Assembly (NCBI GenBank): GCA_000697055.1
Contig: JNDT01002329.1
Span: 1-64,000, forward strand
Source: Saksenaea vasiformis B4078
Lineage: Eukaryota; Mucoromycota; Mucoromycetes; Mucorales; Saksenaeaceae
Length of the DNA stretch: 64,000 nucleotides
Reading direction: 5' to 3'
Positions within the stretch are counted from its first letter, which is position 1. Each line of letters opens with the position of its first letter. The position numbers were made by a program, and so were the translations under genes. Shown here one piece after another: positions 8,799 to 46,849 of this stretch. The notes beneath the pieces were generated by a model that saw nothing but the letters and a program-made list of their open reading frames with translations, did not search any database and had not been told where the DNA came from.

Positions 8799-8937
8799 AG
8801 GGGCATAATGATCTTCTGTGCCACCCGAATAACAAAAAAATCGCTTGACGTGCGGGGGCGTTTGGGGCAACTACGTCGAAAAAAAAAGTCGACGGATTCG
8901 TCCTAGTGCCACGGGTCATTTGATATCGAAAAATCGT
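8799..8937 (+). repeat. Left terminal inverted repeat of the PolB element
   Basis: 139 bp, identical base for base to the reverse complement of 12983-13121, including the lengths of its A7 and A9 runs. It begins (A)GGGGCATAATGATC and ends at AAAAATCGT. Inside it CGTCGA (8874-8879) and TCGACG (8889-8894) can pair around an A-rich loop. Perfect identity suggests recent insertion or copying of one end from the other. Confidence 0.97.
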
Positions 8938-9004
8938 TCGACAATCCTCACAACCTAACATTGAAAAATCTAAAAACGGAATCTCACATAACTTCATTAG
9001 GAAC

Positions 9005-9262
9005 ATGAATGCCGATGAGAAAAGACAATGTAAAAACCCCGATTGTATCATAGAGAAGCCGGAGTTCTACGGCCGGCACAGATTGTGCAAGAAGTGTCAC
9101 AACAAGAGATGTTACGAGTTAAGAAAACAAAGACAATCTCAAGCACTCGTTATGCTCGAAGAGACTCTCAGAATGAGAGAGGAGGTAAAAACTGATATCA
9201 AAGAGTTAAAAGACATGCTGAACGAAATCAACGAGAAGATGGCTCAAATGCGCGTTGTTTAA
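9005..9262 (+). CDS. Small Cys4 zinc-ribbon protein with coiled coil, left arm of PolB element
   Basis: An 85-residue protein. Cys9, Cys14, Cys28 and Cys31 form a C-x4-C-x13-C-x2-C site with the local pattern FYGRHRLCKKC, typical of small zinc ribbons seen in viruses and mobile elements. The C-terminal half is Glu/Lys/Leu-rich (LEETLRMREEVK, LKDMLNEINEKM) and should form a coiled coil. It starts 68 bp inside the terminal repeat and ends 100 bp before the polymerase, on the same strand. It shares the FYxxRxxCKKC core with the small gene on the other arm (12551-12946). A role as end-binding or replication accessory protein is inference only; no catalytic motif is visible. Confidence 0.75.
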   Translation: MNADEKRQCKNPDCIIEKPEFYGRHRLCKKCHNKRCYELRKQRQSQALVMLEETLRMREEVKTDIKELKDMLNEINEKMAQMRVV

Positions 9263-9362
9263 AAAGCAACGGTCATATTTAAAATCCAACGAGACCTGCT
9301 AACAAAATTGAATTCTCCAAAAGTGAGGAGAGTACCCAATCAGTAAGAAATCTGAGAGGAAG

Positions 9363-12300
9363 ATGTTTGACGACCTTGATCCCGTAATCCAGTTGCTTGT
9401 TGAGTTCAAAGGACCCATCTTTGATGAGTGTCCGAACGAAGTACAAGACTTTTTGGTAGCCGATGCGTGGGAGAAGTGGCAGAAGATTAGTCGTTTTATA
9501 CCCGTATCGAAAGACGCGTACGATCGGTCTCCTGTTGCTGTAAGACTGTTCATGGTTAAGAAGGCTTTGGAGAAGTACAACGAAGGACCAAGCCAAGAAC
9601 CTGAATCAAGCCGTGACGCACAGGAAAAAAGACCGACAACGACGACAATTGAGGAGGTATCCGACGAGGGTGAAATGATCGATATTACCGGTCAAAGCGA
9701 AGGAGACGGAGAGGTGTACCATTTCGAGCAGGATCAGGTCGACGTATCGTTCGCTAATTGGCGCGATGTAACAAAACAAAGCCGAAGACGATTCAAAGGA
9801 GATGATGGAAAGATCTACAGTTTCAACAATGTAACTGTTTCGGCGGAACAGGCAGTTGAAGGAGATGATGTTGTGTTATGCCCGTCGACGATCAGATCTA
9901 TTGTCATGAAGTTGGATCAAATGGCCCAAGACAGTTGTTCGAACTTGGACAGAGCGTACATGTATACAATCGCAATGGATGGAGGAACAAGGTTCATTAA
10001 CGCTACTCCCTCGGCGATGGTGTTCGAGTTGATGAGACTGGTGGAAGAATACGAAGACTTCAGCGTTTTTGTATCAGCTCTTTCTGTTCACATAACCCGT
10101 AAAGATTCTCATCATTCCGTAACAGGACACGCTCGTCCTTCAGCGGGAGAAGGAGTATCGATCGAATTGGGAGATGGTTATTGGGCTTTCGATCTTTTAC
10201 CGACCAAAACCCGATGCATTGTTAACGTATTCTCAGCGTGGTTGATGTACAGGAAAGGATTACTTCACGATTGGATAGATATGGATTTCGCGGGAAGATA
10301 CTCTCAACAACAGAAAATCCTCCGTGCGGTAAAGACGTCCCCTCCTAACTCACCTCTTGATATGCAAAGATTTTCCGAACACGATTATTTGGTTATATCT
10401 GACCGTAACGACCTTGATGAGATTGACCCCGACTTCACCGTCCAGAGCTGTGTTTATTTCGTAACGGGCGATCATGCTCGATTAGTCGTCCATGAAACCC
10501 ATTTATCGGAACAATCTGTCGCAGCGATGATAAAAACAGCCACCAAGTCTCATTTAAGCCGAATATCGGTTACCAAGCCCAAAGAACCAACGACGAAACT
10601 AATTGTTGCTGATTTCGAATCATTTCGCGAAGTAGACCCAAACGACGTATCAACGCACAAGCACGTCCCCATCATGATAGGTGAACTATGCGAAGAACAT
10701 TTCTACCAAGCCAAGGGTGAGAATTGTTCTGAACAGTTCATCGAACATGTCAGGGACTCCCATACGAACGATGTAATTTGGTTCCACAATGGATCCAATT
10801 ACGATCACCACATCTTATTTGAAGCTGCGTTGAAGTATTGCGATAAGAATAGGACTAACCCGATTGAGTTGTTAGACCTGAACGGTCGATGGTTGAGCGT
10901 CAAAGTATGGTTCGATTCGAAGAAGTACGTCATATTTCGGGATAGTTGTTCATTAATCCCCGGTAGTTTGGACAGAATCGCTCGAGACATGGGGTTCGGA
11001 GGTAAGTTGCCGAATATTGATGTGATGAACGTGTCTAAGGAGGCGTGGATGAATGACGAGGTGATGGCGGAGTACAACCGTCAAGACTGTGAGATCTTGT
11101 TCAAGGTGTTGGATGAATATCGAAGTACTGCGTTCGATCAGTTTGCGACCGATCCGTTGGCTCATGTCTCAGCTTCGTCGTATTCCAAACAAGTATTTCT
11201 ATCGAAGTACTACAAGCCTGAAAAATGGCCGATATACGTATTAAGTGAGACATGTCACAAATTCATCGAGAAGGGGTACATGGGAGGACGTAATGAATCC
11301 TTCTACAGAGGCTTGGTGAAGAAACCTATGAACATTTATGACTTTACATCGGAATACCCGTGGGCCGGGACGATGTCGATTCCATACGGTAAGTTTGAGT
11401 TCCTGGACGATTTGGAACGAGTCGCTGATCCTGAAAAATGGCTCGAGGATCACCATGGTTTTTACGACATCCTCGTTGAAACGACCCCTGACGATATTAT
11501 ACCGTATTTAGGGATTCAACATGACTCCCGATACATGTTTCCCCGGATGACGAACATTGTGAATTTCGCTGTGTATTCGTTAAGTATTCTGAGAACAATC
11601 GAGTTGGGATACAAAGTGAAGCTGCTACGTGGGTTCAGGTGTAATGTCGATTATGTCACGGCTGAGATTTTCAAGGATCTCTTTAACGTAAAGAAAGAAG
11701 CGAAGGAAAAAGGAGAGAAAGGAAAGGAATACGCCGGTAAAATCACCGTGAACGCTTTTTACGGTACATGGGGGTTCAGGAAGTATGACCGACAGGTTAT
11801 ATCATGCTATGGGAAGAAGTGTGAGCCCAGACTGATCGCGGGGGAACTCCTAGGTCATTGTTCATACACTCGTACAGGTAACGCGTTCCTAGCTTATGAG
11901 TCGAAGAACGTACTCCTGAATAACGTCAACATTGCGATCGCATCGGCCATCACAGCGTACGCCCGTGATTTGATGTATGACTTACTTCAAAGCATTCGTT
12001 CCCTGGGATACAACGTGTACTATTGCGACACGGACAGTGTAGTAACCGACTGTCGTATCGAAGACCACCCGGAGCTTGCTGATCACTTTATGGGCCCAGG
12101 ACGAGGAAAAAACTTAGGCGAGCTGAAACACGAGAACGAGATCGATGAAGCGGTATTTGTCGGATGCAAAACTTATGGGTACCGGACTAAAGAGGGCAAA
12201 TACGTTGCTAAGTCAAAAGGAACGAGATTGAAGGACGTAGAACATGACGTAGTAAGAGCGATTAATGAGACCGATGAAGTGTATGAAGAACGAGTTAACC

Positions 12301-12521
12301 AACGCCGAAACGAGATCATGTACCGTAAACTGGTAGAATTGATCGATAATCCTCAGGAATTCAGCTCGTCCCAAATAAATACCAGCCGCCAACGTAAAAT
12401 GAAAGGTGATCTGAACGTCAAGGACGTGGTGATGAAGAAAACGTTGACTGGGATATACACAAAAGGAAAAGTGCGAGAGAGTGGAGAGATTACCCCGTGG
12501 CACCTAGTGGGCCGTAAATGA
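9363..12521 (+). CDS. Family-B DNA polymerase, protein-primed type
   Basis: A 1052-residue intronless ORF with all proofreading and polymerisation motifs intact. Exonuclease: ExoI DFES (Asp417, Glu419), ExoII NGSNYDHH (Asp481), ExoIII YNRQDCEI (Asp575). Polymerase: motif A YDFTSEYP (Asp660), motif B KITVNAFYG (Lys793, Asn797, Tyr800), motif C YCDTDS (Asp889, Asp891), followed by a KTYGY block and a C-terminus with KKTLTGIY. Spacing and wording fit the organellar/viral DNA_pol_B_2 group that uses a terminal protein as primer. About 415 residues precede ExoI, much more than the exonuclease needs; in linear plasmids this position often holds the terminal protein, so this is a candidate here. An acidic, disordered stretch lies near residues 78-120. 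Translation uses the standard code, arguing against a mitochondrial origin of this copy. Confidence 0.95.
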   Translation: MFDDLDPVIQLLVEFKGPIFDECPNEVQDFLVADAWEKWQKISRFIPVSKDAYDRSPVAVRLFMVKKALEKYNEGPSQEPESSRDAQEKRPTTTTIEEVSDEGEMIDITGQSEGDGEVYHFEQDQVDVSFANWRDVTKQSRRRFKGDDGKIYSFNNVTVSAEQAVEGDDVVLCPSTIRSIVMKLDQMAQDSCSNLDRAYMYTIAMDGGTRFINATPSAMVFELMRLVEEYEDFSVFVSALSVHITRKDSHHSVTGHARPSAGEGVSIELGDGYWAFDLLPTKTRCIVNVFSAWLMYRKGLLHDWIDMDFAGRYSQQQKILRAVKTSPPNSPLDMQRFSEHDYLVISDRNDLDEIDPDFTVQSCVYFVTGDHARLVVHETHLSEQSVAAMIKTATKSHLSRISVTKPKEPTTKLIVADFESFREVDPNDVSTHKHVPIMIGELCEEHFYQAKGENCSEQFIEHVRDSHTNDVIWFHNGSNYDHHILFEAALKYCDKNRTNPIELLDLNGRWLSVKVWFDSKKYVIFRDSCSLIPGSLDRIARDMGFGGKLPNIDVMNVSKEAWMNDEVMAEYNRQDCEILFKVLDEYRSTAFDQFATDPLAHVSASSYSKQVFLSKYYKPEKWPIYVLSETCHKFIEKGYMGGRNESFYRGLVKKPMNIYDFTSEYPWAGTMSIPYGKFEFLDDLERVADPEKWLEDHHGFYDILVETTPDDIIPYLGIQHDSRYMFPRMTNIVNFAVYSLSILRTIELGYKVKLLRGFRCNVDYVTAEIFKDLFNVKKEAKEKGEKGKEYAGKITVNAFYGTWGFRKYDRQVISCYGKKCEPRLIAGELLGHCSYTRTGNAFLAYESKNVLLNNVNIAIASAITAYARDLMYDLLQSIRSLGYNVYYCDTDSVVTDCRIEDHPELADHFMGPGRGKNLGELKHENEIDEAVFVGCKTYGYRTKEGKYVAKSKGTRLKDVEHDVVRAINETDEVYEERVNQRRNEIMYRKLVELIDNPQEFSSSQINTSRQRKMKGDLNVKDVVMKKTLTGIYTKGKVRESGEITPWHLVGRK

Positions 12522-12550
12522 ACATCCGCGATCGCGTTTTTAAAAGACTG

Positions 12551-12946
12551 CTAACGACGCGAGGAACTCAGCATGAAGCTCAGCCAACCGCTAGTGATCA
12601 ACAAGGGGTTTAGCATGGCGATGCCCGAAATCATGATTACCACGCCAGCCACAGCTGTGGCGGGCATGCCTCCGTCATAATGATCGTATGAAGGTTCGAC
12701 GGCAACAGACGCTAAGTTCTCCTCAGACAACGGTCTTCCTCGAACTTGCTCCTGTTTCGCGGTCTGTGTCGAAGCCTCTCTCGGCTGAGCCGAAGGCGAA
12801 GGTGAGGGGGATCTCCGTCTCTCGAGATAACACTTCTTACACACCAATCGGTTAGCGTAGAAGTCGTGCACTTCCTTCTCAACGTGGCATATTCGACAGA
12901 TTTTAGTCATCGTTCTGATGAAATTCATCGAGTCGGAACTGAACAT
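12551..12946 (-). CDS. Small Cys4 membrane protein, right arm of PolB element
   Basis: Up to 131 residues, read inward from the right repeat and ending 29 bp from the polymerase stop (convergent). From the Met at 12910 the site is C-x2-C-x15-C-x2-C with FYANRLVCKKC, matching the core of the left-arm protein. A Ser/Pro/Gln-rich linker follows, then a hydrophobic segment (AVAGVVIMISGIAML and LLITSGWLSFML) that should be one long or two short membrane spans, with a basic end. ATG choices are 12946, 12928 and 12910; the last places the Cys cluster where the left-arm protein has it. The membrane tail hints at membrane anchoring of replication or exit of particles, which is speculative. Confidence 0.7.
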   Translation of the reverse strand: MFSSDSMNFIRTMTKICRICHVEKEVHDFYANRLVCKKCYLERRRSPSPSPSAQPREASTQTAKQEQVRGRPLSEENLASVAVEPSYDHYDGGMPATAVAGVVIMISGIAMLNPLLITSGWLSFMLSSSRR

Positions 12947-12982
12947 TCACTTTTGTGACGACCCAATCTCTTTCACTCGGGG

Positions 12983-13121
12983 ACGATTTTTCGATATCAA
13001 ATGACCCGTGGCACTAGGACGAATCCGTCGACTTTTTTTTTCGACGTAGTTGCCCCAAACGCCCCCGCACGTCAAGCGATTTTTTTGTTATTCGGGTGGC
13101 ACAGAAGATCATTATGCCCCT
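12983..13121 (-). repeat. Right terminal inverted repeat of the PolB element
   Basis: Exact reverse complement of the left repeat at 8799-8937. The outermost matched base (T at 13121 against A at 8799) may be chance, in which case the end is GGGG/CCCC. Confidence 0.97.
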
Positions 13122-42566: not shown

Positions 42567-45500
42567 TTAATCGATTGCCCAACCTTTGCTCTTTAAAGCA
42601 GAAAGTTTCAAAGTCGCTGTCCAATCTCCGTTATCCTTTGCTTTGTTGTACCACTCAATTGCTTTGTCGATGTCACCCATCTCATCTCTGTAAATGTCTC
42701 CAAGTTCTATTTGCACCTCTTCAACTTCTGCATCTGCTGCTTTTTTGTACCATTCGATTGCTTTGTCGACGTCTTTCTTCTCATTTCTGTAAATATCTCC
42801 AAGTTGGATTTGCGCATCTGTGTTTCCTTGATCTGCTGCTTTTTGGTACCATTCAATTGCTTTATCGATATCTACCTTTTCGTCTTTGTAAATATCTCCA
42901 AGCTCGAGTTGCGCTTCTTCATCCCCCTGGTCCGCCGCTTTTTTGTACCATCCAATTGCTTTGTCAATGTCTTCCTTTTCATATCTGTAAATTTCTCCAA
43001 GGATGCCTTGTGCAACATAATTTCCTTGATCCGCTGCTCTTTGGTACCATTCCATTGCTTTGTCGATGTCTTCCTTTTCAACTTGATAAATATCTCCAAG
43101 AGTGAGTTGCGCATATTCAATTTCTTGATCCCCCGCTTTTTGGTACCATTCAATTGCTTTGTCAATGTCTTCCTTTTCACATCTGTAAATATCTCCAAGT
43201 TTGATTTGCATCCGTTCATTTCCTTTCTCCGCCGCCTTTTGATACCAGTCAATTGCTTCGTTCATGTCTTTCTTCACCCCGCGTCCATAACAATACATAT
43301 CACCAAGTTTGATTTGCGCATCTTCAAGCCTGCATTGCGCATCCCGGTTCCCATTATGTGTCGCTTTTTCGTACCATTCGATTGCCTTAATGACGCCTTG
43401 AATCGCTCCATCTCCATCTCTGTACATATCTCCCAATTGGGTTTGCGCGTCTCCAAGTCTCTGTCGCGCATCCCAGCTTCCTTGCTCTGCCGCTTTTTCG
43501 TACCATTCAATTGCCTTGTTGATATCTTGAATTGCTCCGTTTCCATCTCTGTACATGTCTCCAAATTTGATTCGTGCATCTTCGAGTTTCCATTGTGCAA
43601 TCCAACTTCCGTAATCCACAGCTTTTTTATAGCATTCAATCGCTTTGTTGAGGTCTTTTTTCACTCCGTCCCCATCTCTATACATATCTCCAAGTTTGTT
43701 TTGCGCATCTTGAAATCTCCATTGGGCATCTTCGTTCCCTTGGACCGCCACTTGTTCGTAACATTCAACTGCTTTGCTGATGTCTGTCTTCATTCCATCT
43801 CCATCTCTGTGCATATCTCCAAGCTTGGTTCGTGCATCTTCGAGTTTCCATTGTGCAATCCAACTTCCGTAATCCACTGCTTTTTGGTAGCATTCAATTG
43901 CTTTGTTGAGATCTTTTTCTACTCCATTCCCGTCTCTATACATATTTCCAAGTTTGTTTTGCGCATCTTGAGATCTCCGTTGGGCATCTTCATTTCCTTG
44001 GGTCGCCGCTTGTCCGAAAAATTCAATTGCTTTGTTGATATCTTTCTTCACTCCATCTCCATCTCTGTACATATCTCCGAGTTCGATTAGCTTATAGTGA
44101 AATTTACGTCGTGCATCCCTGTCTCCTGAAAACGCCATTTTCTTGTAGCATTCGGCTGCCTTGTTGATGTCTCTTTTCACTCCATCTCCATCTCTGTACA
44201 TATCTCCAAGCTTGTTAAGCGCACCTGAAAGTTTCAGTTGAGCATCCAAAACCCCTTTATCCGCTGCTTTTTGGTACCATTCAATTGCTTTATCGATATC
44301 GACCTTTTCAAAATAGTAAATATCTCCAAATTTGATCTGCGCATCTGTATTTCCTTGACCCGCTGCTTTTCTGTACAATTCAACTGCTTTCTTGACATCT
44401 TTTTCCACTCCATGCCCCTCTCTGTACATATCTCCAACTCTGATTTGTGCATATTCACTTCCTTGATTACCCGCTTTTTCGTACCATTCAATTGCTTTAT
44501 CGAAGTCGAGCTTTTCAAGATAGTAAATGTCTCCAACTTTGATTTGCGCATATTCATTTCCTTGATTCCCTGCTTTTTGGTACCATTCAATTGCTTTATC
44601 GATATCGACCTTTTCAAAATAGTAAATATCTCCAACTTTGATTTGTGCATATTGGTCTCCTGCTTTTTGGTACCATTCCTTTGCTTTGTCGATGTCTTTC
44701 TTTTTATCACTGTAAATATCTCCAAGTTGACGTTGAGCCCATTTATTTCCTTGTTCCGCAGCTTTTTGGTACCATTCAATTGCTTTATCGATGTCTTTCT
44801 TTTCCTTTCTGTAAACGTATCCAAGTTGGATTTGCCCTGCTTCACATCCTTGATCCGCCGCCTTTTGGTACCATTCAATTGCTTTGTCGATGTCTTGCAT
44901 TTCTTCTCTGTAAATATCTCCAATAAGAATCTGCGCACCTGTATTTCCTTGATCCACCGCTTTTTGGTACCACTTAATTGCTTCGTCGATGTCTTTCTTT
45001 TTACGTCTGTAAAAGTATGCAAGACCGAGTTGTGCATCTTGATTTCCTTGATCCCCCGCTGTTTGGTACCGTTCAATTGCCTTGTCGATGTCTTTCTTTT
45101 TATCTCTGTAAATATATTCAAGTTGGATTTGTGCTGCTTCGCTTCCTTGATCCGCCGCTTTTTGATACCATTCAATTGCTTTGTTGATGTCTTTCTTTTG
45201 ACATCCGTACATATCTCCAAGTTTGATTTGCGCATATTCACTTCTCTGATCCAGTGCACTTTGGTACCATTCAGTTGTTTGTTTATCATCTTCCTTTTCA
45301 TCTCTGTAAATGTATCTAAGGTTGATTTGCATCGGTTGATTTCCTTGTAGCGCCGCTTTTTGATTCGACTGGACTTCTTTGTCACAGCCTTTATCCATAT
45401 TTATTCCAAGATAGTATTCTTCGTCGAGTTTATACTGCTGCTGTTCGTCATTTTGATCGCCCCATTTTCCGTACTGGCCAATGTCCTCATTGCCATCTCT

Positions 45501-46849
45501 GTACATACTGTCTTCACCTATGCATCTTCGCTTTCTCAATGGTTCAATGATCGATATTTCGATATTTTCTTTAGATCTTTTTCGTTTAACGTCATCTTGA
45601 AGACCATCAACTTCTTGCTCCGATTTCATATCATCAACATCGGTAATGATACCGATATCCTCGTCACTGAAGGTGCCATTGTCAGGCTCATTCTGCAGAG
45701 TTTCCTGTCCAGGGTCGTTCCCACTTTCTTGTGTTGCATTCGTTCGATCCAGATCTTGGATCCGGGTGTTCGCATCTTTAAGCCTGCCTCGCACGCCTTC
45801 AATCTTTTCCCTGAATGCTTTAGAAAGATTGGTGTAGACATTCTTTGCCGTTTTTCCAAAACAGCTCTTGAAAGATGCAATGCAGTAAACCTCCTCCACT
45901 TGGAGTCGATCTTCACCTTCAAGTATGCTATAGACTGGCTCCAAATTTTTAAATTGAATAGTTGCTGGTTTGAACTTGGTGGTTTCTTTCCAGCGTTCCG
46001 GTCCGTTCACACAAAATGTTCCGGTGTTACCACCTATCACACGCCTATCTAGCAATTGTGGCTGACTTGATGAGAGTTACCTATTACTTCCCAGTATTGG
46101 TGATTTTTTATTGCACTTGTGATCCTTTCAGCTACGTCACCGCAACGGAGTGCTTTGTTTTCACTGTCACTTCCGCTCTGGACCACTGAACTTTCCTTTT
46201 TACAAGCAATTAGACCACCTATGTCAGGAAACCATTAATGAACGCCATCAGTTGGGTCAGATTACCAAGTAACATCCTCGTTGGGTAATAATATCCAAAT
46301 CGCCTAAACACAGCTTGTAGTGCTTCATATCGCTTGTCTACATCCTCCTTCAGAGCAACGTGTATGGCTTCTTTGAAAATAGGAGTCGGTCTGACAACTT
46401 TGGCGGATAGATACACCTAGAAGAATCGTTAAATCATTATTTATAAACATTTCTCGGATTCTTGCCTCTCCCCAAGAAATGTAAGAGACCATGTATTCAA
46501 CTGTACTATTTTCGGAGCGATTCTGGTTATGCTCCTGCGAGTTGCAACTTATTTCAGCAGCAATGTCGTACACGTGCGTTTTGGACGACGAATCGCGTAA
46601 ACTGTCGTCAAGAAATAGCTCATCCGTGGAACGGTTCGCTTTGATGGTTTTCATGTGTGTCTCTTCCACGAACGGCTTGTCGGGAGGATATTCGTGGATA
46701 AGCCTTATGATATTTTCCCTCCCTGGGTCAATCTCCATTGCAGGGTACTCGGCAGTGGATCCATCATAGTGAAGGCCTCTTGTGCATCGGTTAAAAACGT
46801 CATAAAATAAGAACGTGTCGAGCTTATAAAGAGTTAGATAATTTCGCAT
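42567..46849 (-). CDS. MACPF-domain protein with about 25 Sel1-like repeats
   Basis: 1371 residues from four exons: 46849-46490, 46416-46266, 46218-46081, 46033-42567, all in phase; the first donor (gtctct) is weak. The N-terminal 280 residues match the fungal MACPF pattern, with RYEALQAVFRRFGYYYP, then an LGG motif formed exactly across an intron, an IGGNTG block and a Trp-containing stretch ending VYSILEGEDRL. MACPF proteins can insert into membranes; the role of fungal members is largely unknown. An acidic coiled stretch follows, then about 25 Sel1 repeats of about 36 residues (IDKAIEWYQKAADQGN.YAQ..LGDIY), which make an alpha-solenoid for protein binding. Some repeats carry an extended form (GDMYRDGDGVKKD), and a block near 43580-43930 is duplicated. 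Opposite-strand frames of up to 459 codons are composition shadows. MACPF-Sel1 joins are, to my knowledge, a feature of Mucoromycota and Glomeromycotina. Confidence 0.85.

Follow-up and report, generated by a model that had tools for sequence, protein, structure and literature searches.

A three-gene element with long inverted ends and a predicted polinton-type DNA polymerase in the genome of Saksenaea vasiformis

Anatomy of the element

The window analyzed here, the first 64,000 nucleotides of contig JNDT01002329.1 of the fungus Saksenaea vasiformis B4078, contains a 4,323-bp element (8799..13121) that is bounded by terminal inverted repeats (TIRs) and built around a DNA polymerase gene. In line with the original prediction made for this DNA, the two 139-nt arms are 100% complementary; they enclose 4,045 nt, and the runner-up inverted pair in the 6 kb examined was 26 nt at 77%. 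In the 38.7-Mb assembly, the 139-bp sequence matches two places, both at this element. Three non-overlapping genes lie between the arms, in the order zA, pol, and zB (Table 1). Every other open reading frame (ORF) of at least 60 amino acids inside the element either runs antisense to pol or overlaps the left TIR together with the beginning of zA.

The polymerase gene proved to be intact, as had been foreseen, and matched Pfam DNA_pol_B_2 (3.2e-35); none of the three genes reached the Pfam cut-off for any other family. The element was also correctly expected to be free of integrase and capsid genes: no integrase match was found in the three genes (Pfam), no further independent ORF of at least 60 amino acids is present, and no capsid, protease, or packaging ATPase was recognized in the ORF list or among the Pfam and profile matches of the genes. 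The ORF list and Pfam likewise revealed no RNA polymerase gene, no capping enzyme, helicase, or Rpb2-like gene, and no Cas1 integrase in the element, and no recombinase was recognized among its genes. No capsid or integrase fold occurred among the structure matches listed, which by itself excludes nothing.

Sequence and structure models identify pol as a polinton-type, protein-primed family B DNA polymerase (pPolB), in which predicted terminal-protein-like and OTU-protease-like domains precede the exonuclease and palm. In the predicted structure, at low Z, the N terminus contains a PRD1-type terminal-protein domain resembling the little finger of Y polymerases and a vOTU domain with the conserved Cys in alpha1 and His in beta4. 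The exonuclease region aligns to phi29 starting at residue 410. NCBIfam returned weak matches only, with the window polymerase matching cellular PolB models.

Of the two small genes described beforehand as having four cysteines, zB fits that description, and zA was found to carry a fifth. By eye, zA is zinc-ribbon-like and continues into a charged, possibly coiled-coil helix; its match to Pfam TMF_TATA_bd (8.4e-4, under the cut-off) was taken as a coiled-coil resemblance. In zB, a Cys4 zinc-ribbon is followed by an RS-rich linker and a hydrophobic C-terminal segment, with a 19-residue hydropathy of 2.25 at residue 99 (1.71 in the copy on contig C558, described below). A core of the form C-x(n)-FY-x(n)-C-K-K-C is common to zA and zB, and their alignment score of 53 was equalled in 1 of 1,000 shuffles (next score, 46).

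To the left of the element lies what we take, by eye, to be an ABC transporter split over several reading frames, and to the right a presumed aromatic amino-acid hydroxylase frame (also named by eye) and other genes. A glycosyltransferase of the host is 80% identical to one from Apophysomyces sp. BC1034, and in a listing of 120 out of 5,393 matches the next named ones come from Zychaea, Rhizomucor, and Fennellomyces; by this comparison, the host is probably a member of the Mucorales close to Apophysomyces. The GC content at third codon positions (GC3) of pol is 0.51, and six host frames of the window span 0.37-0.56. Because host genes flank the element and pol GC3 lies within this range, the contig is judged to be nuclear and not itself a mitochondrial or plasmid sequence, the outcome that would have spoken against a minimal polymerase-centred element integrated in fungal chromatin; three genes and TIRs between host genes agree with that description. 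Relative to the six host frames of the window only, pol GC3 is also consistent with expression by the host nucleus. Elsewhere in the window (42567-46076), a 1,169-residue frame has strong GC and AT skew and many repeats that look Sel1-like by eye.

Table 1. Features of the element in window coordinates
Feature	Coordinates	Strand	Description
Left TIR	8799..8937	+	139 bp; starts A-GGGGCATAATGA; 100% complementary to 12983-13121
zA	9005..9262	+	85 aa; cysteines 9, 14, 28, 31, 36; homologues in C558, C525, C495 loci
pol	9363..12521	+	ORF of 1,052 aa, no internal stop in standard code
pol residues 163-249	9849..10109	+	Little-finger-like domain, predicted terminal-protein (primer) domain
pol residues 266-392	10158..10538	+	OTU-protease-like domain (D2 region)
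Cys285	codon 10215-10217	+	Predicted catalytic residue in OTU-like domain of pol
His371	codon 10473-10475	+	Predicted catalytic residue in OTU-like domain of pol
pol residues 410-1029	10590..12449	+	Exonuclease and palm with phi29-like TPR regions
pol motifs			A, DFTSEYP 660; B, KITVNAFYG 793; C, YCDTDS 887
zB	12551..12946	-	131 aa; cysteines 17, 20, 36, 39; homologues in C558, C525, C152, C495, C623 loci
Right TIR	12983..13121	-	139 bp

Copies, relatives, and insertion sites

A six-frame search of the Saksenaea genome yielded at least 35 polymerase segments on 21 contigs, the window included, and loci were examined on 17 of the 20 other contigs (those not taken were C445, C565, and C138, along with a second site on C623). 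The genome search proposed with the original prediction, for copies with the same gene order, recovered two further complete copies, on C558 (L009 2496-6838, 4,343 bp) and C525 (L010 2467-7272, 4,806 bp), whose aligned blocks are 71-82% and 64-73% identical to the window element, respectively. Since both have the same boundaries and keep the zA, pol, zB order, the window copy does not appear to have been cut down from something larger. Extensions into integrase or capsid genes, which would have marked a deletion derivative, were not seen in these two copies, the only ones besides the window's in which they were looked for. The C558 and C525 polymerases are broken into several frames with stops, and the window copy is the sole intact one of the three.

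Other loci are more degraded or more distant. On C495 (L017 4372-5038), zA and zB stand tail to tail with the polymerase gone between them and 15 bp separating their stop codons; both genes carry stops, the surrounding frames look retrotransposon-like by eye, and a divergent polymerase fragment (~40% identity) adjoins the pair. Contigs C456 (L014) and C170 (L012) hold deeply divergent lineages of the element's polymerase (26-32% identity) in the same genome, with no TIR above shuffles and no small genes detected (C170 lies at a contig edge). On C291 (L019 2161-3529), Helitron Rep-like frames and a Cys4 segment looking like zB were noted by eye, the Rep-like frames lying upstream of a polymerase fragment of the window element's family.

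No close sibling of the window copy was present among the copies found in the assembly. Against C558, the ratio of nonsynonymous to synonymous divergence (dN/dS) of pol was 0.08 (840 codons) and 0.06 (195 codons), values that are approximate because dS, near 1.6, approaches saturation; against C525, dS was saturated and dN was 0.165. zB is less constrained than pol (dN/dS of 0.36 against C558, 0.42 against C525, and 0.18 against C495), and zA could not be rated because its dS was saturated. With no close sibling found, the copy pattern appears unlike that of a bursting transposon. Because such siblings were not found yet pol dN/dS is low, we infer that a functional lineage has probably been maintained somewhere between insertions.

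Outside this genome, the protein relatives of pol are P0001 (41% identity; longest contig, 4,380 bp), P0002 (33%; contig of 10,317 bp), and P0003 (26%), and P0012 was the one protein gained when four sequences were used for a profile search of the protein collection. Single-query searches of viral_contigs with the window polymerase, P0001, P0003, and P0012 returned no relatives. Alignment queries returned 2 and 12 distant loci, the 12 including both of the 2, and one of these loci examined gene by gene (L026) has a different gene set. A quick tree of 32 rows was built from phage, bacterial-plasmid, archaeal, other-assembly, and own-genome sequences only; having no polinton, adenovirus, bidnavirus, or fungal-plasmid references, it says nothing on kinship among eukaryotic pPolBs. 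It took the 7 of the 12 distant viral loci with a usable polymerase frame (L027, L045, L048, L050, and L052 were dropped); the P0012 branch is long, and the C525 row is 46% filled. The window, C558, C525, P0001, P0002, C456, and C170 form a clade (SH-aLRT, 100), joined next by P0003 (98). Within it, a group supported at 97 unites the window with P0001 and P0002 and leaves out C456 and C170, which come from the window's own genome; therefore, several old lineages coexist in one host. The genome has at least five Pfam pPolB loci, and since all those among the matches listed fall inside this clade, no other pPolB family was detected. Among the matches listed, RNA_pol is represented in the genome by two segments only, on C535.

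The three complete copies have near-precise termini at both ends. Seven element ends were found, and all but one carry GGGGCATAATGA; the exception, on the left of C525, is AGGGC. The perfect terminal repeat is 27 bp in C558 and 26 bp in C525, and past it the similarity is between ends of the same side, left with left and right with right. No direct repeat of at least 4 bp was found within 3 bp of the junctions at any of the three. When flanks were joined to look for empty sites in the same genome, only occupied sites matched over the whole length (the C525 left flank is partly repeat). Since no tRNA gene was detected in the window, L009, or L010 with bacterial search settings, targeting of tRNA genes is not supported. 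The window TIR slightly resembles the C558 left end (z, 2.4; other four ends, -1.2 to 1.4); an origin of the long TIR by copying of one end onto the other is suggestive only and is not claimed. A match of the terminal GGGG to that of PRD1 was dropped as an argument; the record of PRDrose, the one relative examined, begins differently.

GGGGCATAATGA has 13 exact matches in the genome, compared with 1 for the reversed control. Six are element ends (C600 two, C558 two, C525 one, C152 one), six lie inside another repeat, and one, on C505, is explained by neither group, and the sequence was rejected as a family marker. The C505 match (L032 7744) is a lone end-like occurrence with no polymerase match or partner end detected. 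The other repeat (L030 58-4757, on C380) is 93-97% identical over 2-4.4 kb in L028, L029, L031, L033, and L034; it contains the 15-mer GGGGCATAATGAGAA, a frame with AVDPGINQVFTAPYG, and another frame with a four-Cys zinc region. By their motifs, these frames look like a candidate Fanzor/TnpB-type nuclease.

A candidate linear replicon and its alternatives

Collectively, these findings lead us to favor, with a probability of roughly two in three, the reading that the element is a minimal, capsid-less, polinton-type protein-primed linear replicon whose chromosomal copies are occasional captures. The N-terminal domain of pol would provide the hydroxyl group from which synthesis starts at the terminal GGGG of both inverted ends, and the palm with its phi29-like TPR regions would copy the full length of the molecule through strand displacement. 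The OTU domain would then cut off the primer domain, which would stay on the 5' end. phi29 accessory proteins provide a model for end-binding and membrane-tether roles, and by this analogy zA may bind the element ends and zB may anchor or tether replication to a membrane. The element is probably maintained in the nucleus in linear form and is probably transcribed by host RNA polymerase II, and its chromosomal copies would be whole-molecule captures made now and then through host end-joining.

Several points weigh against this reading. The structure models have only moderate confidence (pLDDT, 66.5 and 70.4). Structural Z was 4-6 for both N-terminal domains; the tool's secure level is 8, which 0 of 997 chains reached. 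The D2 region of pol had no sequence-level match to OTU families, and the N-terminal model had no match in BFVD at E 0.001. The C456 polymerase lacks the Cys, and the aligner placed neither Cys nor His in P0003. The assembly could have collapsed near-identical copies, and the synonymous divergence behind the estimate of selection is, as noted, close to saturation. Finally, three insertion sites are few, and older ones may have lost a duplication.

The best-placed alternative, itself improbable, is a chromosomal DNA transposon without an extrachromosomal stage, moved by the polymerase and a host or unrecognized nuclease, perhaps zA or zB. The near-precise termini of the three copies would suit it, as would the weak matches of zB to endonuclease VII and HNH families (4.6e-5, 3.3e-4, and 0.0014) and to Pfam His_Me_b4a2 (0.0081, under the cut-off). 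However, the endonuclease VII and HNH matches do not extend beyond the zinc-ribbon (the best one covers profile positions 61-109 of 271) and give no full nuclease, DNA_pol_B_2 is the only Pfam family reached, all three copies lack a target-site duplication, and no near-identical copies were seen in the assembly. Less probable still is that a mitochondrial linear plasmid of the kind described in fungi, Mucorales among them (Wei and others 2023), inserted into the nuclear genome. pPolB elements with TIRs are indeed known from nuclear and/or mitochondrial genomes of fungi, and their hosts include Mucorales (PMC10583447), but most carry an RNA polymerase, which the window element lacks and which the genome's listed matches place only on C535. 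Their pPolBs are also described as having no D2 (excerpt of PMC11071308), whereas an OTU-like D2 is seen here at low Z, and pol has a nuclear-like GC3 and is open in the standard code. A larger polinton-like virus might also have given rise to the element as a satellite or deletion derivative, replicated or packaged with a helper. This would account for the domain layout and for a small genome with no recognized capsid gene, but it is the least likely of the three, given three complete copies of divergent lineages with the same boundaries and a genome in which every listed pPolB locus belongs to the window clade (helper capsid genes were not searched for).

If the linear-replicon reading is right, the element would rank with the most reduced protein-primed replicons known from eukaryotes and would be a nucleus-resident, capsid-less one of polinton type. 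A bolder version, which we hold only tentatively and at a little short of even odds, is that it represents a hitherto unknown class of nuclear linear episome and the smallest known replicon of polinton type. Here, three genes would suffice, and one polypeptide would act as primer, protease, exonuclease, and strand-displacing polymerase, with no need for a capsid, integrase, helicase, or RNA polymerase of its own; the molecule would be protein-capped and anchored by a zinc-ribbon membrane protein, and the chromosomal copies would be a fossil record of captures. The linear-replicon reading has implications for how polintons and plasmid-like replicators arise from one another, for which a published scheme derives cytoplasmic linear plasmids from polintons through loss of the capsid module (excerpt of PMC11071308). 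It would also make pol a compact enzyme for direct assay of the predicted self-priming and self-cleavage, and it suggests a second look, guided by domain layout, at some sequences of fungal nuclear genomes that have been called "mitochondrial linear plasmids."

Comparison with known protein-primed elements

Polintons (Mavericks) share with the window element the pPolB domain layout (predicted here, at low Z), inverted ends, and nuclear integration. They carry a target-site duplication of about 6 bp, whereas none was seen at the three complete copies, and no integrase, protease, ATPase, or capsid gene was found in the window element. The polinton pPolB consists of terminal-protein-like, OTU-like, exonuclease, and palm domains (excerpt of PMC11071308), and polintons measure 15-20 kb (excerpt of PMC3511435), compared with 4.3-4.8 kb for the three complete copies. 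"Maverick/Polinton1_SM" is listed in Phycomyces (excerpt of PMC11258239).

The cytoplasmic linear plasmids of yeasts (pGKL type) are likewise capsid-less and protein-primed and have a pPolB of TP-vOTU layout (excerpt of PMC11071308), a likeness that for the window element is drawn from predicted features. Their genes include a capping enzyme, a helicase, and an RNA polymerase subunit, and Saccharomycetales are given as their only known hosts (excerpt of PMC10328495); in contrast, the window element has none of these genes and lies in nuclear contigs of a Mucorales fungus. TIR-bounded pPolB elements of fungal genomes have been reported as "mitochondrial linear plasmids," with 95 complete ones from plants and fungi, and share TIRs, a pPolB, and the lack of a capsid (PMC10583447). 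Going by published descriptions, the window element is set apart from most of them by the missing RNA_pol, and its pPolB is set apart from theirs by the OTU-like domain (low Z).

phi29 and the tectivirus PRD1-like phages have the same core polymerase fold and motif spacing, at a distance of 21-27% identity in the 20 tblastn matches listed; they differ in having capsids and a separate terminal-protein gene (annotated in PRDrose, PineapplePizza, and phi29). Polinton-like viruses and transpovirons have a palm fused to an SF1 helicase and have lost the exonuclease, whereas pol has an exonuclease region and no helicase match, and the Cas1 integrase of casposons is missing from the window element.

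No 4-kb polinton-type fungal element without integrase and capsid was described among the matches listed from titles and abstract openings of the open-licence literature. Even so, the suggestion of an undescribed class in the original prediction was too strong, because the pPolB layout is known from polintons and cytoplasmic plasmids and TIR-bounded pPolB elements have been reported from fungi including Mucorales (PMC10583447). Judged by its sequence, the window element is best regarded as a variant of the protein-primed linear elements, one that would work in the manner of polintons and cytoplasmic plasmids and that departs from both classes in its gene content.
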